NCBI RefSeq assembly: GCF_000233955.1
Contig: NZ_JH376597.1
Coordinates: forward strand, 62,001 to 126,000
Length of the DNA stretch: 64,000 nt
Direction: 5' to 3'
Source: Paraprevotella clara YIT 11840
GTDB lineage: Bacteria; Bacteroidota; Bacteroidia; Bacteroidales; Bacteroidaceae
The stretch's first letter is position 1. Each line of letters starts with the position of its first letter. A program made the position numbers and the translations under genes. Positions 1-17,739 of this stretch are shown piece by piece. Under the pieces are notes generated by a model. That model was not told where the DNA came from. It saw only the letters and a program-made list of their open reading frames with translations, and made no database searches.

Positions 1-369
1 CGTCAATTCGAAACAAACGGCATTCCCCTCCACCCTGCACGGTATGTCGTAAGAAAGCGGACGGACACGAGCCGTGTTCACCTTACCTTTATTATATACG
101 GCTTTCACGTCAACCTTTCCGGAAAAGTCGAAAATGGCCATCGAAGCGTCCTCCACGCAGTGTTTGGTATCCCTCACCTCATCCACCTTCACCAAGTAGG
201 ACGGCAAGGTTTTCCATTCTCCCCCGTCTTGACGTACCTGTACCGTAAAATCATCATTCAAATCCACACCCTCAGGAGCCGGATAAGTCACCAAAGAAGA
301 CGAGGCCATACAAACCGCGTGTCCCGTCCCAACCAATAGCATAAGCAAAAGCCAGTGTTTTATTTTCAT
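1..369 (-). CDS. secreted pectin-lyase-fold type protein, N-terminal part only
   Basis: The first 123 codons of a gene that runs off the left edge. It starts MKIKHWLLLMLLVG, a clear signal peptide ending near A18-V-C-M-A. After it comes a beta-rich stretch (APEGVDLNDDFTVQVR, then SMAIFDFSGKVDVKAVYNKG and ARVRPLSYDI). This pattern is the N-terminal beta-sandwich that precedes the right-handed beta-helix in Bacteroidales clan GH-N (GH28/GH49-like) secreted proteins, and the gene at 15242 opens similarly. The catalytic region is outside the window, so activity cannot be assigned. The ATG at 367-369 lies 28 bp past a TATTTTTG -7 element that belongs to the shared direct-repeat regulon of this block. 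Confidence 0.7.
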   Translation of the reverse strand, partial: MKIKHWLLLMLLVGTGHAVCMASSSLVTYPAPEGVDLNDDFTVQVRQDGGEWKTLPSYLVKVDEVRDTKHCVEDASMAIFDFSGKVDVKAVYNKGKVNTARVRPLSYDIPCRVEGNAVCFELT

Positions 370-396: not shown

Positions 397-452
397 CAAA
401 AATAATGCAACCGAAAAGAATAGAATGGGACAAATTGAAACAAAAATAGGGC
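397..452 (-). promoter_or_regulatory. regulon promoter 1: imperfect direct repeat plus -7 element
   Basis: Read on the minus strand: distal half-site GCCCTAT (446-452), proximal half-site GTCCCAT (425-431), a 20-bp spacer, then the -7 element TATTTTTG (397-404). The half-sites are 21 bp apart, against 22 bp at the four other members, and the distal copy has one mismatch because it overlaps the preceding terminator. It is therefore the weakest of the five sites. Confidence 0.6.
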
Positions 453-481
453 TTAAAATCCCCAAATGGAGATTTAAGCCC
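441..481 (-). terminator. rho-independent terminator of the GH127-GH97-GH97 operon
   Basis: On the minus strand the arms GGGCTTAAATC (471-481) and GATTTTAAGCCC (449-460) form a stem with a 10-nt loop, followed directly by TATTTTTGTTT. It lies about 40 bp after the stop of the last operon gene. The T-rich tail overlaps the distal half-site of the next gene's promoter. Confidence 0.8.
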
Positions 482-518
482 TTAGATTGTCATAAAAAAC
501 GTCCCTTACGACATTTTA

Positions 519-2411
519 TCAATGAAACCATCCCACGAAACCTCCCCCGGCACGCAAGTGGACTTTCAATGTTTCTTTTTTAGACACTTTCCTATCTTCA
601 CGCGCAACGGAAGCCAAAATCTTATCATCATCATGCAGTAAGACTGCATCCATACTCTTTTTCAAGAAATCCAAAGGTATCTCAATTTCCCGTTCCTTAT
701 CTCCATTCATCACTCCTACCCACCAATCATTCCCTTTACGGCGGGCATAAGCCACGACTTCGCCCATCTCTGTACAGGATAACACTCGGGTCTCGTCCCA
801 AACCGTCGGCACTGCTTTAAGCAAATCCAAGAAAGGACTTTCCAAATAATAAGAATAATGATCGGAAAAATGAGTAATGGGCGAAAGAAAAACAATAGAC
901 TGGGCAAACTCATGTGTCCAAGTATAACCTCCAGTCTCTATTTCACGCGGGTTCAACGTCACGGGAGTCACATCCGCAGCTCCGGCCATCAAACGTGTGA
1001 ACGGCAAAGCCACATAGTGAGATTGAGGCAATACACGCCCGTATCGTAAAATATGCCACTCGTTTCCTCGAACGGCTTCCCGCGTAACATCGTTCGGATA
1101 AGTACGGGAAAGCCCTGTAGGTTTTACGCTTCCATGAAAATTCAACAACAGTCCCAATTCCGCACAATCCTGCATGGCTCCCATATACCATTGCATGATT
1201 TCTGCCGTGGCCGCCGGAATGAAGTCAATTTTAATGCCTGAAGCTCCCACTGCTTTTATTTTCTCCAAATAAGCCCTGCGCGGACCCGCCGTACGCATTT
1301 CATTAGAGTTGACCCAAACAATGGATTTTACTCCCACACTACGCCCGTATGCTATGACTTCCTCCAACAGTTCCCATTGGTCTTTCCCGTCTTTACGCCA
1401 ATTTCGCCAACCGTCATCTATCAGATAATATTCCCATGTAAGTTTGGCGGCGGCATCGAACCATTCCTTTTGTTCCTCATATCTCGGTGCTCCCACACTC
1501 CACCATTGCCACAGACATCTTCCGGGTTGCACCCATGAGAAATCACGCCCTTCTTCCGGAGAAGGGCACAAGTTCGTCAACATATCCGAGTTGACCAAAG
1601 CTGTCAAATCCCCGGCTATTATCACACACCTCCAAGGAGAAACATCCTTTCCCTTATACCTTCCGGCCAGAATCTTTTCCGACTCATCGGGCAAGCGCCG
1701 GATATCCCATCCTTTTTCCGAAGCGGGGAAACCAGCCTGAAACGTATTCCCCGAACGGGTAAAGGCCATGTCTGGAAAAGATTCGCAATCAGCCTCGGTA
1801 AGTGTCACGTAACAGTTGCCCAGATCGACTGTAAGCGGACCTCCCACATATCCTTTATCCGGCATGGCCTCCAACGCCGTGACATGCACATATCCTTCAT
1901 AACCTGGCTCATATTCAGCCCACGCCACCTTCTTTACCCTCTGTGGCAGGGCCCAAGCTGTCCTTTCATTTCCTATATGTTTCGCGCCTTCTGGCAAAAT
2001 GTAACGTATGGCAACTCCGTCATTATACACTCGCACCACCAAGCCGAAACGCACCCCGGAAGCCTGCATCGGCAATACCGCCTCTACCCCTCTCCCCGAT
2101 GCTTCGGCATGATTCCCGAATATAGGATATTTTTCTTGTATTTTTTCTATTTCCGGCTCAGCCACCAACGACGCACCTTTTCCCAAGTCATTCCCGTCTA
2201 CAGTTATTCCCAACGGAGATTTCTGCAAAACATCCACCTTCCCCCGCTTGACGGAATAAAGGAGCCAGCCTCCGTCCTCTTCCACACAAACTTCTATGTT
2301 TTTATCGGGACTGCCCAACCGTAACAAGTCCCCACGGCTTCCGGCCGCATGCACCGACATCGAAAACAACGACCACAGAAGCCCGGCACTTATAAACAAG
2401 TGATTTTTCAT
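519..2411 (-). CDS. glycoside hydrolase family 97, retaining type
   Basis: A 630-residue secreted enzyme with an N-terminal signal peptide (cleavage near VHA-AGS, residue 23). GH97 contains an N-terminal beta-sandwich, a TIM barrel and a small C-terminal beta domain, and the length fits. GH97 splits into inverting alpha-glucosidases (SusB type) and retaining alpha-galactosidases. Here the barrel carries GIKIDF with D396 at the position of the retaining nucleophile, which SusB-type enzymes lack, and REAVRGNEW (E445 or E451) at the acid/base region. I therefore infer a retaining alpha-galactosidase-type activity; the sugar is not proven. It is the last gene of a three-gene operon, 40 bp after a second GH97 paralogue. 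Confidence 0.9.
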   Translation of the reverse strand: MKNHLFISAGLLWSLFSMSVHAAGSRGDLLRLGSPDKNIEVCVEEDGGWLLYSVKRGKVDVLQKSPLGITVDGNDLGKGASLVAEPEIEKIQEKYPIFGNHAEASGRGVEAVLPMQASGVRFGLVVRVYNDGVAIRYILPEGAKHIGNERTAWALPQRVKKVAWAEYEPGYEGYVHVTALEAMPDKGYVGGPLTVDLGNCYVTLTEADCESFPDMAFTRSGNTFQAGFPASEKGWDIRRLPDESEKILAGRYKGKDVSPWRCVIIAGDLTALVNSDMLTNLCPSPEEGRDFSWVQPGRCLWQWWSVGAPRYEEQKEWFDAAAKLTWEYYLIDDGWRNWRKDGKDQWELLEEVIAYGRSVGVKSIVWVNSNEMRTAGPRRAYLEKIKAVGASGIKIDFIPAATAEIMQWYMGAMQDCAELGLLLNFHGSVKPTGLSRTYPNDVTREAVRGNEWHILRYGRVLPQSHYVALPFTRLMAGAADVTPVTLNPREIETGGYTWTHEFAQSIVFLSPITHFSDHYSYYLESPFLDLLKAVPTVWDETRVLSCTEMGEVVAYARRKGNDWWVGVMNGDKEREIEIPLDFLKKSMDAVLLHDDDKILASVAREDRKVSKKETLKVHLRAGGGFVGWFH

Positions 2412-2451
2412 ATCTGTCTTCTCTTAAAACAAAAACACAAGTCCACACCTA

Positions 2452-4356
2452 TTACTTCACTACAGCTACAAATCCGCCCCGCGGCAGACATGTTACTTGC
2501 ACAACTTTTCCGTTCTCCGGCAAAGACACACTCTCTTCCGTCACGAAACTCTTGCCGTCGCTCCCGTCTTTGAACCATGTCACCTTACAGCTTTTCTCCA
2601 AGCCCAAGTTTTCCAACGGCACGCCAATCACACGGGGTTCATCCGTTCCGTTAATCCCCGCTATGTACCATACATCCCCCTTACGGCGTGCCATGACGAC
2701 TTCCGTCCCGGGATAACCGGCCAAAAGCTTCGTATCATCCCACGCCGTAGGCAACACCGACAAGAATTGTTTTACCTGCTCCGGCAAACCGTAATATACC
2801 GACGGCCTGTCGGGCATGTGCTGCAAAGCCGATTCAAAAATCACAGGCAATGCCAACTCATGGGCATACGTTGTGATATGCGGATGCTGGGAATCGGAGA
2901 AAGTTCCGGGAGTATAATCCATCGGCCCCACTACATTCCTCGTAAAAGGCAAGGTTGCATTATGTGCCGCAGCCTGATTGGTCAGCACGCCGTTATTGTT
3001 ATACCACTCTGCCCCGTAAACGGCTTCCACTGACATCAAATTAGGATAAGTCCGCTGCCATCCCCTCGGAATAGTCGCACCATGGAAATTCACCATCAAA
3101 TTATACTTAGCCGCATCCTCCAACAAGTCGATGTAATAATCCATAGAAGAAATGCTGTCTCCTAAAAAGAAGTCCACTTTTATACCGAAAACGCCTAACT
3201 TGTTCAACCATTCGAATTCTTTCGCACGGTCTTCCGGCTTATTCAGACGATACAAAGGAGTTGGGCCTAACCAGTTTGTGCTTGAGTTGTACCACAACAA
3301 AGGTTTCACGCCACGCTCGTGTGCATACTTCACGGCATCTTCCAAGTTTCCGCCGTTGCCCATCTGATCCCATTCCCAATCTATCAGACTGTAAGGCCAC
3401 TTCATTTCGGCCGCCAAATCAAAATATTCTTTCAGAAGCTGATAATCTCTCGTTCCGTGATTGTACGCCCAATATATCCACGAAGCCGAACCGGATTTGA
3501 TCCACGATGTATCTTCCACCGTTGAAGGGTCGGAGACATCGGTCACCAACGTAGATTCCACGACGTCCGACAACGTCCCTATGATAAGCACCCTCCAAGG
3601 CGACTCCCAAGTCTCTCCCATGGGCTGCTGCTTGTCGAACAGACGCACACGGTAAAGGTCGGCACTGTCGGCATTACACAAGAAAGAGCCTCCATGTCCC
3701 CGCCGGATATTCGCCTCCGTCATCAACATAAATACGGAATCCCGTAATTCCACAAGTCCGGGATAGCCCCAAAGATTCGCATCCGGCTGCCCTTCCAACC
3801 TGCCATTAGTGGACAAAGGATAAAAACCTTCATATCCCAACGTATACTGCTGCATCCAACGTTTCACCCCCTGGGGAACATCGTATGCCGTATGTTCATC
3901 CACGACAAACTCTTCCGGCGCAACAGACTTCACCCCGTATTTAAAGGCCACGCCGTCATCATACGCCCTGATGGTCACGTCCAATATGTTGCCGTCCTCA
4001 TTCTCAAAAGAATAAACCCTTTCAGTACCGTGGTTCACGCAATGACTGCGTTTTCCGGTAAGCATCCGGTAATCATCCGTTATCGGTTTAGCCTCCGACA
4101 CGCTTTTAAATTTCAAGTTGCCGGCATATTTCTGCCGGTTCGTTTCCATTCCCAGACGGACCAATGGCAACGCACGCTCCCCGTTATAATACACCGCGAA
4201 AGACACATCGCCATACTCACCCTTGTCAAGTTCTGTCATGCCCACAACCAAGTGCCTGTCCGGAGAAACCACTTCCTGTTCTTCTACTCCACTACAGGAA
4301 GGAAGCCCCACGGCCAGTCCTAAGCACCACACCCATTTCAAAACTCCTGTCTTCAT
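2452..4356 (-). CDS. glycoside hydrolase family 97 lipoprotein, retaining type
   Basis: A 634-residue paralogue of the next GH97 but with a lipoprotein signal: AVGLPSCSG places the lipid-modified cysteine at C21, so it is probably anchored to the outer membrane while its partner is soluble. The barrel shows GIKVDFF (D395, retaining nucleophile position) and SVEAVYGAEWY (E444/E450, acid/base region). The two share the NFHG and RTYPN blocks but differ greatly elsewhere, so this is not a recent duplication. Middle gene of the operon, 67 bp after the GH127 gene; no internal promoter is evident. Likely an alpha-galactosidase-type enzyme; an alpha-glucosidase is less likely because the retaining Asp is present. 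Confidence 0.9.
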   Translation of the reverse strand: MKTGVLKWVWCLGLAVGLPSCSGVEEQEVVSPDRHLVVGMTELDKGEYGDVSFAVYYNGERALPLVRLGMETNRQKYAGNLKFKSVSEAKPITDDYRMLTGKRSHCVNHGTERVYSFENEDGNILDVTIRAYDDGVAFKYGVKSVAPEEFVVDEHTAYDVPQGVKRWMQQYTLGYEGFYPLSTNGRLEGQPDANLWGYPGLVELRDSVFMLMTEANIRRGHGGSFLCNADSADLYRVRLFDKQQPMGETWESPWRVLIIGTLSDVVESTLVTDVSDPSTVEDTSWIKSGSASWIYWAYNHGTRDYQLLKEYFDLAAEMKWPYSLIDWEWDQMGNGGNLEDAVKYAHERGVKPLLWYNSSTNWLGPTPLYRLNKPEDRAKEFEWLNKLGVFGIKVDFFLGDSISSMDYYIDLLEDAAKYNLMVNFHGATIPRGWQRTYPNLMSVEAVYGAEWYNNNGVLTNQAAAHNATLPFTRNVVGPMDYTPGTFSDSQHPHITTYAHELALPVIFESALQHMPDRPSVYYGLPEQVKQFLSVLPTAWDDTKLLAGYPGTEVVMARRKGDVWYIAGINGTDEPRVIGVPLENLGLEKSCKVTWFKDGSDGKSFVTEESVSLPENGKVVQVTCLPRGGFVAVVK

Positions 4357-4423
4357 TCTTTTTCTTTTTTAATTATTTCACATTAAAATACATACTATAT
4401 TCAGATCACAGTCGCGCAGCCCC

Positions 4424-6280
4424 TCAATAATTCCGTATCGTAGCATATACCCCATAGGATTCCTTGTCCACATCAAACAAGGGGCGAAGCCGAAACTCGC
4501 GTTCTCCGTTCTTCAGGACAAAACGTCCGGACTCACTATCCGCAAACGACAATCCTGCAAGTATCTCATCTTTGTTGCCTTTCAATATCACCTCGTCACG
4601 GGTCTCGAAAGCCAACAGCATCGGGCCATAAAACACAGCCAACATATTTTCCTTATCCGGCATGGACTGCAAACGGAATGCGTAACGAAACTCTATCCGT
4701 ACCCTGTCACCATCTGCCCAACGCCTTGAAAGCTTCAGGAAGGAAGACGGACGTACCGGCATTTCCTGCTTCTCGCCGTTCACATATACCACTGCACCAT
4801 CCGTCCAGGCGGGTATGAACAAATTCAACACGAAATCCACCGGACGGCGCACCGACACGGTGAAATCCACTATCGGTTCCACCGGAAATCCCCCGGCTTG
4901 TTCCAAACCGACCTTTTTATCAGCCCAATGCACTTTGGAAGGCACGTATAAATTCACATACACGGCCGAGTCGTCATGATAATAAATGCCGTTGTTCAAT
5001 TTGGCAAACGCTTCGGCACAAGACCCGCTGCAACACTTGAAGTCGTTGTCCGCCATGTACGCCTTATGACGAGGTGACCCCAACGGCAAATGGTAAACAT
5101 AAGCTCCCGTGGAACGGCTCTGCACGGGAAGCACCGCATTATAGAACATGTTCATGTAAACATCCGCATAACATGGATTACCCGTCCACGAAAAAAGACT
5201 GGCATTCAACCGCTGCGTGTTATGGGTCACGCAACTCTCCGCAATGCCTTTGGTCAAAGTATTGCACAGATGGCAAGGTTCGCCCCAATGCTCTGCCGTC
5301 AACGAAGTCTCGGTCGTGACGTTCGGGCGCGGACCGCTGCTTGTGCCGTTGACATACGCATGGAAATGCATGAGCATATTCCAAAAGTTCGCAACGGACT
5401 TCCCGTAACATTCCTCCCCCGTGGACTCATACCGCCGGGCAAAACCGTTCACCAAAGCAATGTGCGTATTGGCATGCAATCCGGAAAGAATGTCCTCGTT
5501 CCGCACCAAGGGTTCCAAAAACCATGAGGGGTCAAATAAGGAAGCCAGTTCCAAATACCGGGGTTTTCCGGATACACAGTAAAGTTGGTACAACACTTCG
5601 TTCATGCCCCCCATCTCATTCTGGGGATTGGCATCTGCCGTGTACATCATGCGTGCGACAGTCGCCGGATCCAGTTTCGACATGCGCCTGTCCACATAAC
5701 CGGCCAAGCCCTCCACCATGGCGTATGCCTTTTCATTGCCGGTGCGGAGATACACGTCCAACAGTCCCTGCATGATTTTGTGAAGCGTATAATACGGTGC
5801 CCACACACCTGTAAAACGCGTCTCCAACACCTCTATGTCCGTTTCGGGAAAAGCGCTTAAATAACCGTTTCCGTGTGCTTGCTGGCAGGCATACATGCCC
5901 TCGACGACCTTCTCCAAGTTCCGTGCCAACCCGGCGTCTTCATATCTCTCCACCAAGGCTGATACAGCCGAAAGATAATGTCCCACGAAATGTCCCCGCA
6001 AGCCTACGCCGGGCGACTCCCAGCCTTCCAAGGGCTTTGCCACGGAAGGCAAGCCTGCGTTCACCCTGAAATTATGCAATAACCTGTCCGGTTCCAACGA
6101 CCTAAGGAAAGCGGTATTCAGGTCTTCCCGCTGCTTAACCCACGAAGAAGCCAATTCCACGTCATGGCTTGGAAACGGCAACAACATCTCCGTCGCAGAA
6201 GGGCTGACGGCCATCTTGCCGCCTGCTTCCATCCGAACGGCTACCCAAAGGAAAAGTATAAACCAATAATGTGCCTTCAT
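4424..6280 (-). CDS. GH127-type (DUF1680) beta-L-arabinofuranosidase
   Basis: A 618-residue secreted protein (signal peptide ends near MEAGG). GH127 enzymes remove beta-L-arabinofuranose using a zinc-bound cysteine nucleophile; in HypBA1 the metal ligands are Glu-x-Cys plus a Cys-Cys pair about 77 residues later. The same set is here: GEPCH (E334, C336) and FKCCSG (C416, C417), at almost identical spacing. The barrel start GVGLRGHFVGHYLSA is also typical. The substrate could differ within GH127/GH146, for example arabinan, extensin arabinosides or RG-II sugars. First gene of the operon with two GH97 enzymes, transcribed from regulon promoter 2. Confidence 0.85.
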   Translation of the reverse strand: MKAHYWFILFLWVAVRMEAGGKMAVSPSATEMLLPFPSHDVELASSWVKQREDLNTAFLRSLEPDRLLHNFRVNAGLPSVAKPLEGWESPGVGLRGHFVGHYLSAVSALVERYEDAGLARNLEKVVEGMYACQQAHGNGYLSAFPETDIEVLETRFTGVWAPYYTLHKIMQGLLDVYLRTGNEKAYAMVEGLAGYVDRRMSKLDPATVARMMYTADANPQNEMGGMNEVLYQLYCVSGKPRYLELASLFDPSWFLEPLVRNEDILSGLHANTHIALVNGFARRYESTGEECYGKSVANFWNMLMHFHAYVNGTSSGPRPNVTTETSLTAEHWGEPCHLCNTLTKGIAESCVTHNTQRLNASLFSWTGNPCYADVYMNMFYNAVLPVQSRSTGAYVYHLPLGSPRHKAYMADNDFKCCSGSCAEAFAKLNNGIYYHDDSAVYVNLYVPSKVHWADKKVGLEQAGGFPVEPIVDFTVSVRRPVDFVLNLFIPAWTDGAVVYVNGEKQEMPVRPSSFLKLSRRWADGDRVRIEFRYAFRLQSMPDKENMLAVFYGPMLLAFETRDEVILKGNKDEILAGLSFADSESGRFVLKNGEREFRLRPLFDVDKESYGVYATIRNY

Positions 6281-6305
6281 ACACCCGTATCATTTATTCC
6301 TACCG

Positions 6306-6362
6306 CAAAGATACGCCCTTTCCACCCATCATAATAGGACAAAACCACCAAAAAGATAGGAT
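6306..6362 (-). promoter_or_regulatory. regulon promoter 2, GH127-GH97-GH97 operon
   Basis: Minus strand: half-sites ATCCTAT (6356-6362) and GTCCTAT (6334-6340) start 22 bp apart, then exactly 20 bp, then the -7 element TATCTTTG (6306-6313). The proximal half-site occupies the place of a -33 box. The 15 bp between half-sites, CTTTTTGGTGGTTTT, are nearly identical to those at the GH31 promoter. Confidence 0.75.
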
Positions 6363-6476
6363 AAAAAACTTTTTTATCACGATTCTCTTTCCATGCCATG
6401 CAAAAACAACTTGGCGTGACATTTCCATCCCTCCGTACGCATTGGCTTTCGCAAAGGCGAGAGAGCCCCCGGAAAA

Positions 6477-7493
6477 CTACCTTTCACCCAACACGAACAA
6501 ACGAATATAGACATTCTTTTTGAACAGCAGCACCAAACGGTAACAAACCACCAGTTCGACCAAGGCCAGACATGGCGGCAGGACAAACGTCCAAATCATG
6601 GGTACATAAAATCCCAGACTGTTGAACAGGTATTCCAACAAAAAAGTCTGCAACCAATAAATGCCCAAAGTAGACCGTCCTATGCCATTCAATGCCGTTG
6701 CGATTCCTTTACCCTCAATAAGGCGATAAACGTAGGGAGACAACAGGAAAAACGACATGCTACCTGCAATGCCTATCGCCAGACGATAGAGCACCACAGA
6801 AAGGTTCTGCACGTCCCACGTGAACGTCCCCCAGTCCAACACTTGAGTGGGAACCATATACACCGTAAGCCTCCCGGACCAAAATGGCAGCATAACACCA
6901 AAAGCCACAAGGGAAATCCCTAAAAACCATTTGCGGTGGCGGTCCAAAAGGGATTGGTTCAGCTTACAAGCATATCCCACCCAAAACATGGGAAGCATAA
7001 AGTTGAAGTTCGCCACACCGCCATAGGGCAAAATGCCGGACAACACGACAGTCACGAGGGCTGCCAGCCAAACATTCCGGAACAAGCGGATGGACAAGAA
7101 TCCCACCAAATAACACAAAAACACACATTTCAAGAACCACACCGTGTTCATAAACCCCATCCAATCGGGAGTGAACAGGGCTGGCCACGGGTTATGCCCC
7201 ATGACGGACACCGCCGTCCACACTATGACAAAAGCCGTCACCGAGGGCAAGAGCAACTGCACGAACTTCTTTTTCAACAGTCCCCCGAAGGTGAGCTTCA
7301 GCGAAGAGCCGAAGAAATAACCGCACAGCAACATGAAGAGCGGCATGTGGTAAGTATAAATAAAACTCCAAATAGGGTTGTCCCAATAGTCGTTCCCCGT
7401 GAGCTGTTCCACAGAATGCCCCAGCAAGACGCTGCCAATGGCAAAAAACTTCAAGAAATCAAGATAGGGGATACGTGCTTTTGATTTTTCCAT
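6477..7493 (-). CDS. acyltransferase family 3 membrane protein
   Basis: 338 residues with about ten hydrophobic segments. The start motif RIPYLDFLKFFAIGSVLLGHS and TYHMPLFMLLCGYFF are the hallmark N-terminus of the acyltransferase-3 (OafA/NodX/WecH) family, which transfers acetyl or other acyl groups to sugars across the inner membrane; the GHS histidine is the usual essential residue. I chose the ATG at 7493 (MEKSKARIPYLD) because the motif begins directly after it and an earlier ATG at 7559 would overlap the GH31 stop. It follows GH31 by 53 bp and is probably co-transcribed. The acceptor is unknown. Confidence 0.85.
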   Translation of the reverse strand: MEKSKARIPYLDFLKFFAIGSVLLGHSVEQLTGNDYWDNPIWSFIYTYHMPLFMLLCGYFFGSSLKLTFGGLLKKKFVQLLLPSVTAFVIVWTAVSVMGHNPWPALFTPDWMGFMNTVWFLKCVFLCYLVGFLSIRLFRNVWLAALVTVVLSGILPYGGVANFNFMLPMFWVGYACKLNQSLLDRHRKWFLGISLVAFGVMLPFWSGRLTVYMVPTQVLDWGTFTWDVQNLSVVLYRLAIGIAGSMSFFLLSPYVYRLIEGKGIATALNGIGRSTLGIYWLQTFLLEYLFNSLGFYVPMIWTFVLPPCLALVELVVCYRLVLLFKKNVYIRLFVLGER

Positions 7494-7546
7494 CAGAATG
7501 ATATGATTAATGTGTTGGATAATCGCTTTCCGCCATTCCACCAGCC

Positions 7547-10093
7547 TCACAAGCGGCATTCCGTGGCTGTTCCGTCGTAACGGACTTCCACGCCCGCCCC
7601 TTCACGGAACACCTCGTCCGCGCTGCCGCCCAAGACCACGCGGAACTTTCGGGACTCCTCCATGCCGGGGAACGAGCCTTCGCGCCGGGCGATAGACAGC
7701 ACGCCCCGGCTATCGTCCCATTCCATCCGGATGGTCGAGAAACGCCCCTGTTCGTAACCGTAATTGTCGCCTTCGTCCTCATACAGGGTGAAAATGGCAT
7801 CCCGTCCGGGATAGACCACGATGGTAAGTTCTTTTCCCGACAACTCTCCCGTATGCTGCACAACCGGCCCCATCGGAACGATGGAACCCTGGCGCACGAA
7901 CAAGGGAATCTTGTCGATTGGCGCATCCGCCTTGACATCCCGGCCGCCCCGGTACTTTTTCCCACTCCAGAAATCCACCCAGTCCGTACCTTCCGGCAAA
8001 TATACGGTCCGTGTCTTTTCCACACCCTGCAAAGCCACGGAACCTTTATCATAGTACATCGGACGGGTCACGGGACACACCAGAAAAGCCGGACCAAACA
8101 TGAATTCGTCCTTGATGTCGTGCACACGGGCGTCGTCCGCAAAATCGAAAGCCAACAACCGGCTCATGGTATAGCTTTCTTGCGTGACCTTCCCGGCCAA
8201 AGAATATATATAAGGTATCAGGCGGTAACGTAAACGAATCATGCGCAGGATACTGTCATAAAAAGGCTCGCCCGGCCGGCCGAACCGCCAAATCTCACGC
8301 GGAGTGTCCGTGCCATGGCTGCGGAACAGAGGCAAAAATGCCCCGTATTGCAGCATCCGCACGTAATATTCCCGGTAACCCATATCGTCCACGCCGGCAT
8401 CGAAATCTCCCGCACGAAACCATTCGCGCCCTTTCCGCGTGAAAAACGAACCGATATCCACCGTCCAATAAGGGCAGCCCGTAGCCATGAAATTCAACCC
8501 CTGCGGAATCTGCTGGGCGAACGACTTCCACGAAGCATGCGTATCACCGTTCCACGTGATGGTAGAATAACGCTGTTGTCCCGCATAACTGGAACGCGTC
8601 AGGTTCACCACTCGCTTGCGGTCGGTCGTGGCACGCTGGTTCTCATACAGCCCCTTGGAATGATACAACGAGAAAAGGCTGCTCCGCTCAGCCCCCAACA
8701 CACCGTCCAGCAAAGCCAGATTCCCTTTCCACCGTTCTTCATGGCTGTCCCAACCGTATCCTTCGGGCATCGGTCTCCAATCCGCATCCAACGGTTCCGT
8801 GCAGTCGCACCACCAAGCATCGAAACCGTTGCCGAAGAATTCCCCGTCGGCATATTCCCAATAGCGCGCCCGGGCCAGGGGATTGAAAACGTCATACACA
8901 GAACGGGGCAACATAAAGCCACGCCTCTCAAAGTCTTTCGTCTGGGGGCAGTTCGTCGGGTTGGGCCAAATGGACACCATCAGCTTGGCATCCCACGCAT
9001 GTATGGAATCTGCCAACGCACGCGGGTCGGGATAGTTTTCACGGTTCATCTTCATGTACCCCCACTGTCCGCCAGGCCAATAGTTCCAATCCTGCACGAT
9101 GACATCCAAAGGCACCTGCCGCCGACGGTATTCCTGCACGACGTCCACAAGCTCCTTCGAATGGGTATAGCGTTCCTTAGACTGAATGTAACCGAAAATA
9201 TACCGGGGCATCATCGGAGATTGTCCCGTCAACTTGCGGTACTGGGCCACGACGCGATCCATCGTAGATCCTTTCATGAAATAATAATCCACCTCCTTGG
9301 CGGCTTCCAATTCCATGAAACCGCCTTCCGCCCCGTCTTGGAACTTCATCCCGCAACCCGCATCGAACAACAGGCCGTAACCGGCCGTGGAGTTCAACAC
9401 CGGTACCATCTCTTTCAGGTTATGCTGGCACAGGTACATCGTCTTGCCCCGCAAGTCGAGGAAATCTTCCATGTGGCATCCCAAACCATAAAGCGCCTCG
9501 CCTTCCGACCAGCGGAAATGATTCCTGAACGTCCAAGTCCACCCCACCGTGTCGCGGCGAAGCACGTCCATCACTTCCTTCTCTCCGTCGGCCGTTTTCT
9601 CGATTCGCCTGCTATCCGGGTCGTAAACGACGTTTTCCATATACGTCTTCTCCGCCTCGCGCGGCATGTCCTGACGCTCGGAAAGCAAAACCTTTCCCGT
9701 GCGGGCATCCTTATAAGTAAGGGCACAAGTGTTCAAATCCACCCGCACTTCCAGGCTGTCCGACTGCAAAGAAAGCCCCCCTGACACCGAAGCTACCTGA
9801 AAAGGAACCTTGTTTTCCGTCCGCTCCACGCATACTATAGTACCGTTCCCCAAAAAATCGGCTTCACGCGTATAACGTACCCTCACGATGTCCGGACTCA
9901 CGAACTCCACACGCATTCGCCCGTCCGCCGTACGGCAATACACTCCGTTCTCCAACATGACATACCCGTCGTCCGCCGCCGCGACCATAGCCACAGAGCC
10001 GACAGAAATAAAAAAACACAATGCTGCACTAAACTTGGAAAAGCCCGACTTCCAAAAACTCGGCCTCGGGTTTGCAGATACCTCTATATCCAT
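7547..10093 (-). CDS. glycoside hydrolase family 31 (alpha-xylosidase/alpha-glucosidase type)
   Basis: 848 residues from the chosen start. GH31 enzymes are retaining alpha-glycosidases; the nucleophile motif WWCDCTEP gives D430, and WNGDTHASW gives the acid/base D517. A signal-like segment (AALCFFISVGSVAMVAAA) lies at residues 23-40. An ATG 21 bp further upstream (10114) falls on the expected transcription start, so MDIEVSANPRP at 10093 is preferred. Glucosidase, xylosidase and sulfoquinovosidase members cannot be told apart here. It is transcribed from regulon promoter 3 together with the acyltransferase. Confidence 0.9.
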   Translation of the reverse strand: MDIEVSANPRPSFWKSGFSKFSAALCFFISVGSVAMVAAADDGYVMLENGVYCRTADGRMRVEFVSPDIVRVRYTREADFLGNGTIVCVERTENKVPFQVASVSGGLSLQSDSLEVRVDLNTCALTYKDARTGKVLLSERQDMPREAEKTYMENVVYDPDSRRIEKTADGEKEVMDVLRRDTVGWTWTFRNHFRWSEGEALYGLGCHMEDFLDLRGKTMYLCQHNLKEMVPVLNSTAGYGLLFDAGCGMKFQDGAEGGFMELEAAKEVDYYFMKGSTMDRVVAQYRKLTGQSPMMPRYIFGYIQSKERYTHSKELVDVVQEYRRRQVPLDVIVQDWNYWPGGQWGYMKMNRENYPDPRALADSIHAWDAKLMVSIWPNPTNCPQTKDFERRGFMLPRSVYDVFNPLARARYWEYADGEFFGNGFDAWWCDCTEPLDADWRPMPEGYGWDSHEERWKGNLALLDGVLGAERSSLFSLYHSKGLYENQRATTDRKRVVNLTRSSYAGQQRYSTITWNGDTHASWKSFAQQIPQGLNFMATGCPYWTVDIGSFFTRKGREWFRAGDFDAGVDDMGYREYYVRMLQYGAFLPLFRSHGTDTPREIWRFGRPGEPFYDSILRMIRLRYRLIPYIYSLAGKVTQESYTMSRLLAFDFADDARVHDIKDEFMFGPAFLVCPVTRPMYYDKGSVALQGVEKTRTVYLPEGTDWVDFWSGKKYRGGRDVKADAPIDKIPLFVRQGSIVPMGPVVQHTGELSGKELTIVVYPGRDAIFTLYEDEGDNYGYEQGRFSTIRMEWDDSRGVLSIARREGSFPGMEESRKFRVVLGGSADEVFREGAGVEVRYDGTATECRL

Positions 10094-10118
10094 ATATCTT
10101 TCGCTTGTTGTCATGCGG

Positions 10119-10175
10119 CAAAGATACGGTTTTCCATTTTTCCTTTATAGGACAAAACCACACAAAAGATAGGAC
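10119..10175 (-). promoter_or_regulatory. regulon promoter 3, GH31 unit
   Basis: Minus strand: perfect GTCCTAT half-sites at 10169-10175 and 10147-10153, 22 bp start to start; 20 bp to the -7 element TATCTTTG (10119-10126). This is the cleanest copy of the element and serves as the reference for the other four. Confidence 0.8.
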
Positions 10176-10205
10176 TATATGTACAAGACTTCCGTCGACA
10201 ATGAT

Positions 10206-11561
10206 TCACCTTGCCATTTTACGTAGGATTTTCGGGAACTGCCAAACAAAAATCAAGGTGCAACAAACGGCTGCGGCGGCATCGGAAACACCCTCGGCGG
10301 CGTACACGCCCATAACCCCCATCCAGCGCGGCAACAGTAGAGCCAACGGCACCAACAATATCACCTTACGCAACAAGGCGATGAAAACGGACACCTTGGC
10401 CTGGCCAAGCGCGACAAACATGTTCTGGCAAGCCCGTTGCAGGCCGAAAATCGTCATACCGGCCAGGAACACGGGTAAGGTATACTCCACGGTGGCTATC
10501 AGCCGTTCGTCGGACGTAAAAGCCGAAGCGACCAATCCGGGAAACAGAATCATGAAAAGGACAAGCAGCAGGTTGAAAGAAAACATCACCCGGACCACGA
10601 TTTTAAAGCAGTCCTTCACCCGCTCACGGTTCCCGTGGCCGTAGTTGTAACTCACGATAGGAATAAAACCTTGTGCGAACCCTGTCAACGGTACACTGAC
10701 GGCCAACATCGCACTTTGCATGATGGCCAATGCGCTGATATAGATGTCGCCATACACTTTCAAGCCGCTGTTCAGCACAAAACCCACCAGACTTTCCGTA
10801 CTGGCCATGATGAACGGGGACACGCCCAAGGCCAACGTGGCACCAATGATTCTCCTGTCGGGACGCATATACCTCCGCTCGATTCTCAACGTGGCCTTGC
10901 GCGAGGTCAGGAAATGCAACACCCACCAGGCACTGCAAGCCTGCGAGAGGATGGTGGCCAAAGCCGCCCCTTTCACCCCCATGCCGAACACAAAAATGAA
11001 CAGCGGATCGAGACCGATGTTCAGCAGCGCACCGATGACGACCGAGCACATGGCTATGCCCGGCCTTCCCTGCGTATTGATGAAAGTGTTCAGCCCCACC
11101 GAGACCTCCACGAACAACGTCCCCAACAAATACACCGACAAATAATCCATCGCATAGCCTATCGTATGTTCCGATGCCCCGATAGCCATCAGCAGGGGAC
11201 GCATGGACAGGTAAGCCATGGCCGATGTAAGGACGGTGAAAAGCAGGAGCAATACCAGTCCGTTCCCCAATATCTTGCCGGCCCGCTCCCGGTCGCCCTG
11301 CCCCAACGCGATGGCAGCCAAAGGTGCACCTCCCGCCCCCACGATAGAGGAGAAAGCGGAAATCAGGATGATGACCGAACTGGTCACTCCGATACCGGCC
11401 AACGCGTCGGTACCGATACCGGGAATATGGCCGATGTAAATACGGTCCACGATGTTATAAAGCAAGTTGACGATTTGTGCGGCCACAGCCGGAAGGGCCA
11501 TCCGGAACACCAACGGCAGCATGCGGTCCGTACCCAACCGCTCTTCGTATAGATTATTCAT
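10206..11561 (-). CDS. MATE family multidrug/solute exporter
   Basis: A 451-residue inner-membrane protein with about twelve hydrophobic helices and the MATE pattern: LPLVFRMALPAVAAQIVNLLYNIVDRIYIGH at the start and the second-half repeat (GFVLNSGLKVYG...ALAIMQSAMLAVSVPLTGFAQGFIPIVSYNYG). MATE transporters export cationic compounds by Na+ or H+ antiport. The GFAQGxxPIVSYNYGxxxxxRV block is typical of the Bacteroidetes/Firmicutes subgroup. It has its own TAACTTTG promoter and no regulon repeat, so it is probably unrelated to the carbohydrate regulon despite sitting inside it. Substrate unknown. Confidence 0.9.
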   Translation of the reverse strand: MNNLYEERLGTDRMLPLVFRMALPAVAAQIVNLLYNIVDRIYIGHIPGIGTDALAGIGVTSSVIILISAFSSIVGAGGAPLAAIALGQGDRERAGKILGNGLVLLLLFTVLTSAMAYLSMRPLLMAIGASEHTIGYAMDYLSVYLLGTLFVEVSVGLNTFINTQGRPGIAMCSVVIGALLNIGLDPLFIFVFGMGVKGAALATILSQACSAWWVLHFLTSRKATLRIERRYMRPDRRIIGATLALGVSPFIMASTESLVGFVLNSGLKVYGDIYISALAIMQSAMLAVSVPLTGFAQGFIPIVSYNYGHGNRERVKDCFKIVVRVMFSFNLLLVLFMILFPGLVASAFTSDERLIATVEYTLPVFLAGMTIFGLQRACQNMFVALGQAKVSVFIALLRKVILLVPLALLLPRWMGVMGVYAAEGVSDAAAAVCCTLIFVWQFPKILRKMAR

Positions 11562-11588
11562 GTGTCTGCTCTCTCATATAACTTCGTG

Positions 11589-11596
11589 CAAAGTTA
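11589..11596 (-). promoter_or_regulatory. promoter -7 element for the MATE gene
   Basis: TAACTTTG on the minus strand, 28 bp before the ATG at 11561. It matches the Bacteroidetes primary sigma factor element TAnnTTTG. Confidence 0.6.
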
Positions 11597-12295
11597 CGAA
11601 TTTTAAATGGAAGACAGGAGCAATGACAAAATGTTCCTTCTGACTTTTTGTATTCCGTAATGCCCCGAGAATCGGATATTCCGTCCCGAATCCGGTCGGG
11701 ACGGAAAATATCGCAGCCATGCCGGTTCCCGTAAAATCAAAAAGTCGGTCCGGTGCGCTCATTCCCGTCATTTTGCCACCGTCCGCCTCATTTGCTCCGC
11801 ACGGTTCGCCGTCCGTGTTTCTTAAAAGCCCGTTTCTGCTTGCGCTTTGCACGATTCTTCATGTCATCGGAAAATCTCCAAATAAATCCGCGAACGCCCC
11901 TTTCTGCACATTCCACTCCCGTTGAAGGCCGATTTTCCACACGGAAAAAAGGAACCGCCGCCACGACATGCGGACAATATGCCAATGACATGCTCGTATA
12001 AAAATCCCGTTCTCATGAGATTGATTTTCTATTCGGCTGTGAACGGTACGCCGATATGCAGCGTTTATGCAAAAAAAACACTTGATATACGTATATTTAT
12101 GCAAACCATCCTCACAGATTCGGGCTGAAGCTTCAACCCGGATGTCAGCCCGAAAGCTTATCCGGCTACTTTTTAACAGCAAAAGAAGTGATTATCCCTA
12201 TTTTTGTTACTCACCACATCCTATACATCTATGTAAGAGCGTAAAGGGAAGTAAAGAAGGAAATCAAGCCCCAAAACAAAAGACTGCTTGAAAAT
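11597..12295. other. 700-bp intergenic region, no convincing gene
   Basis: Short open frames exist here on both strands but none has a good start, a recognisable product or a plausible promoter. The one structured item I see is the hairpin at 12119-12154. The region separates the minus-strand MATE gene from the plus-strand MG2 gene. Confidence 0.5.
12119..12154. repeat. perfect 10-bp inverted repeat in the intergenic region
   Basis: Arms TTCGGGCTGA (12119-12128) and TCAGCCCGAA (12145-12154) are exact reverse complements around a 16-nt loop. The loop overlaps a second palindrome, TGAAGCTTCA (12125-12134), so two alternative folds compete. No T-run follows, so it is not an obvious terminator. 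It could be an operator or part of an untranslated RNA. Confidence 0.5.
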
Positions 12296-12352
12296 GTCCC
12301 ATGATTTGTTACGAAACGTCCCATACTGTTCTTCAAATCTTTTATTACTTTG
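12296..12352 (+). promoter_or_regulatory. regulon promoter 4, MG2-type gene
   Basis: GTCCCAT half-sites at 12296-12302 and 12318-12324 (22 bp start to start), then 20 bp, then TTACTTTG (12345-12352), a -7 element with one mismatch. The -7 element contains a TTG that would otherwise be read as an upstream start, which supports the ATG at 12371. Confidence 0.7.
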
Positions 12353-12370
12353 CTTAAACATACTAAGAAC

Positions 12371-15136
12371 ATGAAAAGAATTACCTTATTTTATGCACTT
12401 GTTTGCACCGTATGGAACATCTCAGCGCAAAGCCATAAAGATATTGCATCCGTGGATTCCCTCGCCGCCCGCGTGGAACGTTTCGGCACCGGCCTACCGC
12501 AAGAGAAAGTGTACCTCCATATTGATAACACCTGCTACTTCGTGGGCGATACGATATGGTACAAAGCATACGTCACACGGAGTGACAAGGGATGGCTCAC
12601 CGACCTGAGCAAAATCATGTACGTGGAACTTCTCACGCCGGACGGCTATCTCGTGGAACGGCAGCAACTGAAGATGGAGGACGGAACGGCACACGGGGCG
12701 TTCACCCTGACCGACTCGCTCTATGCCGGATACTACGAACTGCGGGCATACACCCGGTGGATGCTCAACTTCGGACGACACGAGCATCCGCATTCAAAAT
12801 ATACGGAGGATATGTTCTACAACAAACAGATGGCCAAAGATTTCTTCCGGGATTATGACAAGTTGTATTCGCGCGTATTCCCCGTATTCGACCATCCCAA
12901 GGAAGCCGGGCGTTATGCCAAAGACATGACACTACGCCCCATGCGAAGGTACTACAAGGCGCGGAAAGGGAAGCCCGAAATAGACCTGCGTTTCTATCCC
13001 GAGGGAGGGCATCTGATTGAAGGTACAGACGGACATGTGGCATTCGAAATCAACGATGAGGAAGGAAAACATTTAGATGCAGAATTTTCCATCATCGATA
13101 GCGATGGAAAGGAAGTAGCCCAGACACGGACATTGAACCGGGGAAGAGGCGTGTTCACCCTAACAGACATGAAACCGGACGATAAATACAAAGCCAGACT
13201 GCATTACCAAGACTACGACTATGAAGTGAAGTTACCGGAAGTGGAAAAGGAAGGATATGCCCTGCATGTGGAGAGGAAAGACAGCGTACTGAGGATGATT
13301 ATACAAGGTACTACCGAAAGCAAGGAGGAATTAGGGATACAGATACAGTGCAATGGCGTAAGCAAGGCCGTCAGAAAACTCTCGACCAACGCCACGGGAA
13401 AGGACACCGTAGACATATATTGGGCTTCGCTCCCCACGGGCGTGAACCAAATCACAGTCTTCAATGGCGAAGGACGGATTTATGCCGACCGCCTCTTTTT
13501 CGTCAACCACCACGATTATAACCAACCGCTCATCACCGTAGAAGGCATAAAACAGGAATATGCCCCGTTCGAGCCTATCGAACTGCGGATGAAACTGCTT
13601 CGGCATCATGATGCGGACGTATCCCTCGCCATACGCGACCATGCCACGGACGAAACGACTTACGACAACGGTACGATGCTCACTGAAATGCTGTTGGCTA
13701 GCGAGATTAAAGGTTTCGTGGAAAACCCCGGATGGTATTTCGAGACGGACGACAGCCTGCACAGGAAAGCCCTCGACCTGCTCATGATGGTACAGGGATG
13801 GAGAAGGCATGACTGGAAAATGATGGCCGGACAGGAGCACACACAGTTTGAGTTCCTGCCGGAAAAGATTCAGACACTCAGCGGAAGTGTGCACCAGACT
13901 TATCCGCTCTTGGAGGAAACAAACTACGGTGAGTCCGTGTACATACCCCTCATAGCTGACACTGCACCTATTTATACCACGGCACCCGACTACCATAAAA
14001 AGGGAATAAAACCACCCCTCGCCAAAGTCCTGACCCTGCAAGACCTCTATGGCCCGCTCATTAAAAAGATGAAAAAGGAAGCGAACGTGTCCGCCTCGTT
14101 CATACAAGACCGAGACATCGTAGATGTTTCACAAACCACACAAAACGGAAAGTTCTACATGCCTTCGGCTGTCGTCAACGACAACTACGTCTTATTCCTA
14201 AGCGCTTCGGACAGTACAAAAAGTGAGAAATATAAAAGAAGAAGAAAAAGGAAAGGATTCATGGACGAACAAGCCTACCCGGAGTTCTACGTCAAACTCG
14301 ACCCGTTCTTCCCGGTATTTCCCAAACCATACAGTTACTATCAGGATGCTGCTTTCGAGGAAAAATTTGCCTTGCAGGATTCCGCAAGCTGGGAAAGCTT
14401 CACCGAACGGAAACTGAATACTGTCACAGTAAGGAGCAAACGGGGAGGATTGAGAAGATTAGACCACAGCAAGCCGGCCTTGGTCGTGGATGCTTACGAA
14501 GCCTTCAACCTTGCCGCCGACTATGGGTTGAACTGCGGCATGCACGACTGGAGGGCATTCTCGAGGCAAGTGGCCACGGCGTTTTTCGGAGACATGGGTA
14601 TGGACAGGCATTTCTATCTGCAAGAACAATACGATGGAAAGATATTAGATTTTATGCCTGAGCAAAAGAGGGAGTCCGAAGCGGGCATGTCCATGTCCAA
14701 CGCACAAATGGAAAAGTACCGTCGCCTCCGCCATCTGGACAAACTATACATCTATACCGATTACGTCCCACGGGAACAAGGAAGTTGGAAATACAGCCAG
14801 ACCAACCAACCGGAGGTGGTCATAGACTACCGGCTTCTGCCCAACGACGGAGTACGACCCACCTACCGGGACAGACGGTATGCTGCAACAGGATACTCCG
14901 TTTGTACGGAATTCTACTGTCCCGATTACAGCAAGAAGCCGATGCCCGATGTCAAAGACTACCGACGCACGCTTTACTGGACACCCAAAGTGAAATTCAA
15001 CGACAAGGGAGAAGCCGTCATCCAACTATATAATAATAGTAAAAAGACGGTGATAACCGTGGAGGCCGAAGGCATTACAACCGACGGGAAACCCGTTGTG
15101 TGGAAATCGGAAACAGATAAAACATACTCACGTTGA
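12371..15136 (+). CDS. large secreted MG2-domain protein of unknown function
   Basis: 921 residues beginning MKRITLFYALVCTVWNISAQS, a type I signal peptide. The block PQEKVYLHIDNTCYFVGDTIWYKAYV and the following GAFTLTDSLYAGYYELRAYTRWMLN are the macroglobulin-like MG2 pattern of a Bacteroidetes family of exported proteins, some of which are labelled TonB-plug-containing. A middle segment (LNTVTVRSKRGGLRRLDHSKPALVVDAYEA) resembles the start of a plug-like domain, but no TonB-receptor barrel follows. It ends in a beta-sandwich (IQLYNNSKKTVITVEAEGITTDGKPV). It is probably surface or periplasmic. Its promoter shares the regulon repeat with the GH genes, linking it to carbohydrate use. Function unassigned. 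Confidence 0.75.
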   Translation: MKRITLFYALVCTVWNISAQSHKDIASVDSLAARVERFGTGLPQEKVYLHIDNTCYFVGDTIWYKAYVTRSDKGWLTDLSKIMYVELLTPDGYLVERQQLKMEDGTAHGAFTLTDSLYAGYYELRAYTRWMLNFGRHEHPHSKYTEDMFYNKQMAKDFFRDYDKLYSRVFPVFDHPKEAGRYAKDMTLRPMRRYYKARKGKPEIDLRFYPEGGHLIEGTDGHVAFEINDEEGKHLDAEFSIIDSDGKEVAQTRTLNRGRGVFTLTDMKPDDKYKARLHYQDYDYEVKLPEVEKEGYALHVERKDSVLRMIIQGTTESKEELGIQIQCNGVSKAVRKLSTNATGKDTVDIYWASLPTGVNQITVFNGEGRIYADRLFFVNHHDYNQPLITVEGIKQEYAPFEPIELRMKLLRHHDADVSLAIRDHATDETTYDNGTMLTEMLLASEIKGFVENPGWYFETDDSLHRKALDLLMMVQGWRRHDWKMMAGQEHTQFEFLPEKIQTLSGSVHQTYPLLEETNYGESVYIPLIADTAPIYTTAPDYHKKGIKPPLAKVLTLQDLYGPLIKKMKKEANVSASFIQDRDIVDVSQTTQNGKFYMPSAVVNDNYVLFLSASDSTKSEKYKRRRKRKGFMDEQAYPEFYVKLDPFFPVFPKPYSYYQDAAFEEKFALQDSASWESFTERKLNTVTVRSKRGGLRRLDHSKPALVVDAYEAFNLAADYGLNCGMHDWRAFSRQVATAFFGDMGMDRHFYLQEQYDGKILDFMPEQKRESEAGMSMSNAQMEKYRRLRHLDKLYIYTDYVPREQGSWKYSQTNQPEVVIDYRLLPNDGVRPTYRDRRYAATGYSVCTEFYCPDYSKKPMPDVKDYRRTLYWTPKVKFNDKGEAVIQLYNNSKKTVITVEAEGITTDGKPVVWKSETDKTYSR

Positions 15137-15139
15137 TTT

Positions 15140-15196
15140 GTCCCATCATTTGGAAAAAAATGTCCTATACACTTCCAAAATAAGTCCATACCTTTG
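15140..15196 (+). promoter_or_regulatory. regulon promoter 5, clan GH-N-like gene
   Basis: GTCCCAT (15140-15146) and GTCCTAT (15162-15168) start 22 bp apart; 20 bp later is the -7 element TACCTTTG (15189-15196). The element begins only 3 bp after the stop of the preceding gene, so this gene is not merely read through from promoter 4. Confidence 0.75.
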
Positions 15197-17355: not shown

Positions 17356-17739
17356 TCACACGGTAATCTCTATTTGATTGTGTTCGGAATCCAGAACACA
17401 ACTTTCATAGAACCCATCGCCGGTAAGACGTGGTCCACTGATAACCTCGTACCCGGCTGATTGTAATTTAGCAGTCAGACTATTCACCTGTTCCTCACTC
17501 CCCACGCTGAACGACAAATGAATATATCCCGTACAATAAATATCTTTTCCTAGGTCCGACAAATCCGGACGTGTCATGATTTCCAACTTGGCTCCATTGC
17601 CGAAACTTAAAAAATAGGACTTCAAGCCTGTCCGGGGATTATGATACATTTCATTAGAAACGGCATCGAAAAAACGCACAAAGAAATCCTTTACCGCCTC
17701 CAAATCCCTCACATACATAGCCACATGATCGATCTTCAT
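17356..17739 (-). CDS. VOC-fold (glyoxalase/bleomycin-resistance type) protein
   Basis: 127 residues forming two VOC half-repeats. MKIDHVAMYVRDLEAVKDFFVRFF gives the first metal-ligand position (H5), GAKLEIM the second (E53), GYIHLSFSVGSEEQV the third (H74), and NQIEITV the last (E125). That full metal set suggests an active lyase, isomerase or dioxygenase-type VOC enzyme, but the substrate is unknown. Its ATG overlaps the stop of the upstream HpaII-like gene by 4 bp (ATGA), so the two are translationally coupled. Confidence 0.8.
   Translation of the reverse strand: MKIDHVAMYVRDLEAVKDFFVRFFDAVSNEMYHNPRTGLKSYFLSFGNGAKLEIMTRPDLSDLGKDIYCTGYIHLSFSVGSEEQVNSLTAKLQSAGYEVISGPRLTGDGFYESCVLDSEHNQIEITV

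Follow-up and report, generated by a model that had tools for sequence, protein, structure and literature searches.

The Locus and Its Genes

The window considered here is the whole stretch of 64,000 nucleotides from Paraprevotella clara YIT 11840 that was analyzed (contig NZ_JH376597.1, positions 62,001 to 126,000; C21:62001-126000 in the contig labels used below), taken from a genome of 4.23 Mb. In its left part, several genes related to glycan degradation are preceded by a common element, in which a direct repeat of the box GTCCYAT stands at a fixed distance before the -7 box TAnnTTTG. This element and its presumed regulator, an AraC-type hybrid two-component system (HTCS) encoded in the same locus, are the subject of this analysis.

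The minus strand of the window begins with the 5′ part of a GH28 gene (1..369; PF00295), which runs left to C21:60933 and encodes 480 amino acids (aa). It is followed by a presumed operon of three genes, read in the order GH127 family (4424..6280), GH97 (2452..4356) and GH97 (519..2411), and by a GH31 gene (7547..10114) nearest to alpha-xylosidases, whose end is overlapped by an acyltransferase-3 gene (6477..7559). On the plus strand lie the genes of a 921-aa protein, here called MG2 after a sub-threshold match to PF01835 (28.2 bits, cut-off 32.8; 12371..15136), and of a 671-aa GH28-like protein with weak pectin-lyase-fold/GH28 matches below the curated cut-offs (15242..17257). Right of the locus, an HpaII-type restriction endonuclease gene is found (17736-18830), which adjoins the GH28-like gene also in Paraprevotella xylaniphila, at 94% identity.

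The left flank carries on one strand the GH28 gene, the gene of a 1025-aa PF05426 protein, the HTCS gene, a 955-aa gene and a 1225-aa gene. Beyond the latter follow, on the same strand, three fasciclin-domain proteins, two SusC-like/SusD pairs and an extracytoplasmic function (ECF) sigma factor gene; the second SusC-like protein has the Plug family as its sole match. From the 1225-aa gene through the second SusD gene the gaps are at most 92 bp and two genes overlap, so that one operon is likely. The three fasciclin-domain proteins, which adjoin the SusC/SusD genes, are encoded at L062:6974-10644 and L031:1669-4389. The ECF gene stands alone at the end of the locus (C21:29309-29830; together with the site before it, C21:29309-29915 or L062:1309-1915), and no anti-sigma factor was seen among those neighboring genes that were scanned with Pfam.

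The initial annotation had described a carbohydrate regulon without SusCD. This is not supported, since the element at C21:50297 heads the same-strand run that contains both SusC-like/SusD pairs. The SusCD-free regulon was an artefact of the window edge and was rejected once the left flank had been read; judged from this gene order, the regulon very probably includes SusCD. A search of the PDB at an E-value of 0.001 returned nothing for the 1225-aa, 955-aa, MG2 and GH28-like proteins. Taken together, the GH28, GH31, GH97, GH127 and PF05426 lyase-like proteins suggest that the substrate is some uronate-containing heteroglycan of the plant cell wall.

The Element and Its Confinement to One Locus

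Within the window the element is present at five promoters, at the positions and on the strands that had been claimed for it. On the minus strand it precedes GH31 (10119..10175; GTCCTAT-N15-GTCCTAT-N20-TATCTTTG), the GH127 operon (6306..6362; ATCCTAT-N15-GTCCTAT-N20-TATCTTTG) and GH28 (397..464; TG, GCCCTAT, TTTTG-N9-GTCCCAT, 20 bp, TATTTTTG), and on the plus strand MG2 (12296..12352; GTCCCAT-N15-GTCCCAT-N20-TTACTTTG, with an imperfect -7 box) and the GH28-like gene (15140..15196; GTCCCAT-N15-GTCCTAT-N20-TACCTTTG). In all five, 20 bp separate the second copy from the -7 box. The other parts of the initial description stood with corrections: both copies of the 22-bp pair are exact at three sites (GH31, MG2 and GH28-like), while the first copy before GH127 reads ATCCTAT, and TAnnTTTG follows the repeat at four sites, with TTACTTTG in its place before MG2.

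The left-edge site before GH28 had been taken as a 21-bp variant. Here, GCCCTAT indeed lies at 21 bp, and a fixed-geometry matrix trained on six sites of the window's own genome scores the site higher in a 21-bp frame (26.2) than in the 22-bp frame (21.8). In the four other genomes examined, however, the orthologous promoters reach their top score at 22 bp, through a TTTG sub-box upstream of the second copy. The left-edge site retains the 22-bp TTTG register.

The six training sites score 36.2-41.3 in this matrix. That the element occurs nowhere else in the window, as had been stated, was borne out: the best other score is 14.1, as compared to 21.8-41.3 for the five sites. In surrogate sequences (20, each of 64 kb) the highest scores ranged from 9.1 to 18.3, and the exact repeat pair did not appear in any of 100 shuffled windows.

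The initial annotation had also called for a motif scan of the whole genome. Here, the exact pattern GTCCYAT-N20-TAnnTTTG has six matches, all of them within C21:50241-77196, about 27 kb of a single contig; the exact element is thus clustered at one locus and not scattered. Four matches lie inside the window and two left of it, before the 1225-aa gene (from C21:50297) and before the 955-aa PF05426 gene (from C21:53294). The control pattern, which is the same pattern read backwards, has no exact match in this genome. If one mismatch is allowed, 24 matches are obtained versus 8 for the control, and a single weaker match therefore says little. Such a match of 35 bases, GTTCTATCC...TACTTTTG, is present in identical form at C10:44391 and C29:76902 of the same genome, and a similar one at C51:47586. 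A weaker site with a score of 22.9 precedes the ECF sigma gene (C21:29915).

Taken by itself, the repeat pair shows no enrichment, whether in the window (17 matches versus 12.4 expected, up to three mismatches) or in the genome, where the search at up to two mismatches was uninformative (63 matches versus 62 for the reversed pattern). What carries the signal is thus the fixed distance together with sites that are exact or score highly, and not the repeat pair.

Geometry of the Element and a Bipartite Half-Site

The geometry was counted in five genomes of the genus, over 289 kb that cover the locus and its surroundings. From the end of an exact GTCCYAT to TAnnTTTG, the distance is 20 bp in 18 cases and 42 bp in seven, the latter representing the upstream copy; no other distance between 0 and 60 bp occurs. 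Where an exact second copy is paired with a first copy (at most one mismatch), the two are spaced by 22 bp ten times and by 21 bp twice, and the remaining spacings from 8 to 40 bp account for four pairs.

For a closer view of the half-site, 26 sites from the same five genomes were aligned, namely the six training sites and others chosen by a score of at least 20 in the fixed frame. This choice selects for the spacing and for the scored columns, but not for the columns upstream. In these upstream columns, outside the matrix, 21 of the 26 sites have TG at 11 and 10 bp before the first copy, as compared to at most 8 of 26 at other offsets from -28 to -2; in the window's own genome alone, it is present at five of eight sites. 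A 22-bp repeat leads one to expect TG 11 bp before the first copy, as observed. A full TTTG occupies the equivalent place before the second copy (21 of 26 sites by row count, in scored columns). Furthermore, the mean self-match of a 20-bp half-site is 0.556 at a shift of 22, and the ten remaining shifts between 17 and 27 give 0.225-0.329. With the TG/TTTG sub-box in the 22-bp register, the half-site reads TG-N9-GTCCYAT in the alignment, doubled at 22 bp. Plausibly, such a bipartite half-site would fit an AraC-type domain with its two helix-turn-helix motifs.

Downstream of the repeat, TAnnTTTG is exact in 24 of the 26 sites, which were partly chosen by this box. In the -33 interval, TTTG is missing in 25 of the 26.

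The Hybrid Two-Component Regulator and Its Relatives

An adjacent hybrid two-component gene, which the initial annotation had proposed to look for, is present in the same locus at C21:53505-57605, 4.4-8.5 kb left of the window. It encodes 1366 aa and combines in a single chain, over the Pfam cut-offs, the families Reg_prop, Y_Y_Y, HisKA, HATPase_c, Response_reg and HTH_18. The sensor resembles the solved structures 4a2l, which we take to be BT4663, and 3v9f; for the receiver-HTH part, the match is 12aw. The receiver contains the sequence SHIP; an S/CHIP motif in the alpha3-beta4 loop of the receiver is described as typical of HTCSs in the accessible text of PMC11253607. The closest named relative of this regulator is found in P. 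xylaniphila and is 88% identical. A Pfam scan of 23 proteins of the locus showed no regulators other than the HTCS and the ECF factor.

To relate the element to the regulator, 30 of the 36 HTCS matches listed from 151 genomes of the family, together with two loci from Phocaeicola, were scored with flanks of about 1.5 kb each, contig permitting; one locus (L061, 47% identity) was set aside because its contig ends inside the gene, and some of the loci are orthologue pairs. All 12 loci with at least 43% identity to the HTCS have a site, scoring 17.3-40.4, while all 20 loci with at most 39% identity score 12.5 or less. The top matrix score in a 193-kb control pool is 17.2. In genome G040, a site is found beside a 50% relative.

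The exact pattern is present in 36 of the 151 genomes, and five of these carry at least four exact matches: the window's own genome (G000) has six, G072 and G090 five each, and G121 and G140 four each. Here, G000, G072, G090 (of the window's genus) and G121 encode HTCSs at 67-100% identity; G140, which belongs to another genus, yielded no HTCS match at the search threshold. In this comparison of sequences, the element tracks the relatives of the HTCS across genomes.

A paralogue of the HTCS with 57% identity is encoded in the same genome (G000:C65:141012-145007; stretches L118 and L119). It carries a variant of the element, with AACCTAT and ATCCTAC, at its own start, and in its region a weak site (16.8) precedes an ECF-like gene. 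Two HTCS genes of a single draft genome, L121:62-4163 (P. xylaniphila) and G090:C24:28099-32192, are each split into two open frames, due to either a sequence error or decay.

The targets are conserved to different degrees among the five genomes of the genus. A site scoring at least 20 precedes GH28 and the 955-aa PF05426 gene in all five. In G000 and G090 one is also found before GH31, the 1225-aa gene and the GH28-like gene, the last of which has it in G121 too. On another contig of G121, a 46% relative of the 1225-aa gene is likewise preceded by a site; G072 has no site of at least 20 directly before its 1225-aa-like genes. The ECF gene was seen in three of the five genomes (G000, G090 and G072), and in all three it carries a site; in two other stretches, the element of the ECF gene lies at L150:7755 and L112:3422. 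For the HTCS gene and the 1025-aa gene a site is present only in G121. In G090, a site resembling the one before MG2 precedes an open reading frame of 648 aa without a match in the locus.

Proposed Mechanism and Alternative Explanations

The initial annotation had suggested an AraC-type activator, as in hybrid two-component systems, which replaces the -33 box. The comparison supports this, both by the HTCS within the locus and by the element following its relatives. We regard it as highly probable that the element is the operator of this HTCS, bound by a tandem dimer over the -33 region for class II activation. By analogy with the HTCS family, a periplasmic glycan fragment would be sensed by the propeller/Y_Y_Y sensor, and the fused kinase would then phosphorylate the receiver domain of the same protein. 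Two AraC-type DNA-binding domains would bind head to tail, on TG-N9-GTCCYAT and then on TTTG-N9-GTCCYAT, 22 bp or two helical turns apart. The downstream half-site, which ends 20 bp before TAnnTTTG, would place the regulator at the -33 position, where one DNA-binding domain may touch the polymerase at the missing -33 box, as expected for a class II activator at primary-sigma promoters.

The regulon proposed on this basis comprises the likely 1225-aa/SusCD operon, the PF05426 lyase-like gene, GH28, the presumed GH127-GH97-GH97 operon, GH31 with the acyltransferase gene, MG2 and the GH28-like gene. The ECF sigma gene probably belongs to it too, and as a conserved target it represents a lead.

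Several observations weigh against this interpretation. The aligned sites were selected by score in a fixed frame, and exact boxes outside the locus, with no site of at least 20, exist on the contigs C1 and C6 of G072, the C1 box being counted among the 18. The correlation between identity and score is uncorrected for ancestry, and locus L080 holds a training site. The two Phocaeicola loci (49% identity) score 17.3, near the top of the control pool, with the same site in both and near-identical spacers, so that they look like near copies. Upstream of the regulator in L061, no site of at least 12 occurs in 5.1 kb. In G025, the regulator is 67% identical, and the second copies are degenerate (GTCATAT and ATCTCAT) with no exact match in the locus. 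The HTCS's own promoter and the 1025-aa gene have no site in the window's own genome. Finally, GH127 follows GH31 in G090 without a site of its own, and an orthologue of MG2 was not found in the DNA of the relatives that was examined; no counterpart of the sites before GH127 and MG2 was thus seen in these relatives, and both sites rest on the window's own genome alone.

Since AraC-type proteins in general are able to bind direct repeats, another AraC-family or one-component regulator encoded elsewhere might bind the element, with the HTCS as a bystander. The site, however, follows the relatives of the HTCS, including the 57% paralogue with its variant form and the 50% relative in G040, and the HTCS and the ECF factor are the only regulators among the scanned proteins of the locus, which makes such a bystander role improbable. 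The ECF factor itself leads to another explanation, namely that box and -7 element form an ECF sigma promoter, for instance for the factor at C21:29309-29830, and that the repeat is a by-product. In favor of this, the locus does contain an ECF gene, which in three genomes has the element before it. Nevertheless, the downstream part corresponds to the primary-sigma consensus TAnnTTTG (PMC7366714, as far as its accessible text goes), which is exact in nearly all of the aligned sites (these were partly chosen by it), and neither the 22-bp tandem copy nor the TG sub-box has an evident role in a sigma promoter. We therefore consider an ECF promoter very improbable.

Position alone would also permit a repressor operator over the -33 region, by which the polymerase is blocked until the glycan is present. 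But promoters that nearly all lack the -33 TTTG look weak on their own, and the HTCSs studied so far are described, in the accessible parts of PMC3404733 and PMC11253607, as inducing their loci when active. A repressor thus appears hardly probable. The HTCS of the locus, acting as a class II activator, remains the preferred regulator of the element.

Relation to Known Systems and Wider Implications

AraC of Escherichia coli binds two direct half-sites about 21 bp apart at araI1-I2, with the downstream half-site bordering on the -35 region, and acts as a class II activator. It shares with the case described here the direct half-sites and the class of activation; in contrast, AraC is a one-component arabinose sensor and differs in the sequence recognized and in the sigma factor.

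For Bacteroides, HTCS motifs have been described as direct repeats with a mean of 21 bp (Ravcheev et al., 2013, PMC3878776). According to the available text of this study, these regulons and the present one have in common a direct repeat of about two helical turns before the genes of a polysaccharide utilization locus, with an AraC-type HTCS in the locus. In Paraprevotella, the half-site TG-N9-GTCCYAT recurs at 22 bp and ends a fixed 20 bp before the -7 box, a distance that the text on Bacteroides does not mention; as the comparison was made by text only, the published motifs may include this half-site too. The regulon described here is new and well supported, with a type of control that is known from these bacteria, and its repeat design is already present in the published HTCS motifs. 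SusR-like regulators also use direct repeats in Bacteroides glycan loci; their spacing, however, is 67 or 77 bp and their DNA-binding domain is a different one (PMC3878776, available text). With repeats 22 bp apart, a SusR-like regulon was discarded. The regulators BT4663 and BT4124 of Bacteroides thetaiotaomicron are HTCSs with the S/CHIP receiver motif as well; for these, promoter binding was tested by gel shift (Gao et al., 2024, PMC11253607, as accessible), whereas the Paraprevotella case is comparative throughout.

The position of the repeat was also examined at other HTCS loci. Here, 12-base windows just before TAnnTTTG were compared with the sequence one spacing upstream, and at least 10 matches were counted as a hit. 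In a first set of 30 loci (269 boxes), eight hits fell on the spacings 21 and 22, and eight on the 16 others between 15 and 32 taken together. The second set comprised 26 loci with 149 boxes and gave five hits at 21 and 22 and three at 18 other spacings. Repeats at 21-22 bp are thus more frequent in these loci than those at other single spacings. The two sets overlap, as two matches in L154 are the two matches in L142, one stretch on both strands. By eye, a CAACATTT-like core was seen in five other HTCS loci, with the downstream copy beginning 36 bp before the -7 box at five promoters and 35 bp at one. For the regulator on contig C3 and two of its relatives, TTTACCCC-like copies lie 22 bp apart and end 20-21 bp from the -7 box. 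As these sets are small and were chosen after the fact, a general register rule for HTCS loci is put forward as a proposal.

Extending this, one promoter code might apply to Bacteroidales HTCSs: whatever the half-site, the downstream protomer would lie about 40 to 21 bp before TAnnTTTG, so that regulators and targets could be paired from sequence alone, and in the present case the HTCS would act on the lone ECF gene in a two-step cascade. We hold this extension tentatively, at somewhat less than an even chance.

In other genera, GTCCCATGATTTGAGAC or a similar single box is found at the same 20 bp before the -7 box (L195:7104 and 16448, L196:9812, L197:10015 and L198:10665). Three of these four stretches were scanned, and each has in its neighborhood a gene of a defence family (AbiU, type IIG restriction or methylase by its match); the GTCCCATGATTTGAGAC-type box is perhaps a control site of defence islands. 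GTCCCATGATTTG-like boxes, from genera without a close HTCS, had been considered as a counter-example and were dismissed; the four stretches have no repeat at 22 bp, and some of the boxes are partly palindromic.

Among open-licence papers, none was found that links HTCSs or the position of their sites to the -7 box, and the accessible text of PMC7366714 contains no such link. As far as this literature shows, the half-site is new, as are its exact spacing from the -7 box and the ECF gene as a target.

The analysis thus provides a concrete predicted operator for an HTCS of Paraprevotella together with its proposed regulon, and corrects the view of a regulon free of SusCD. The positional rule, with 20 bp to the -7 box and a bipartite half-site, could help to match glycan loci to their regulators in gut Bacteroidales.

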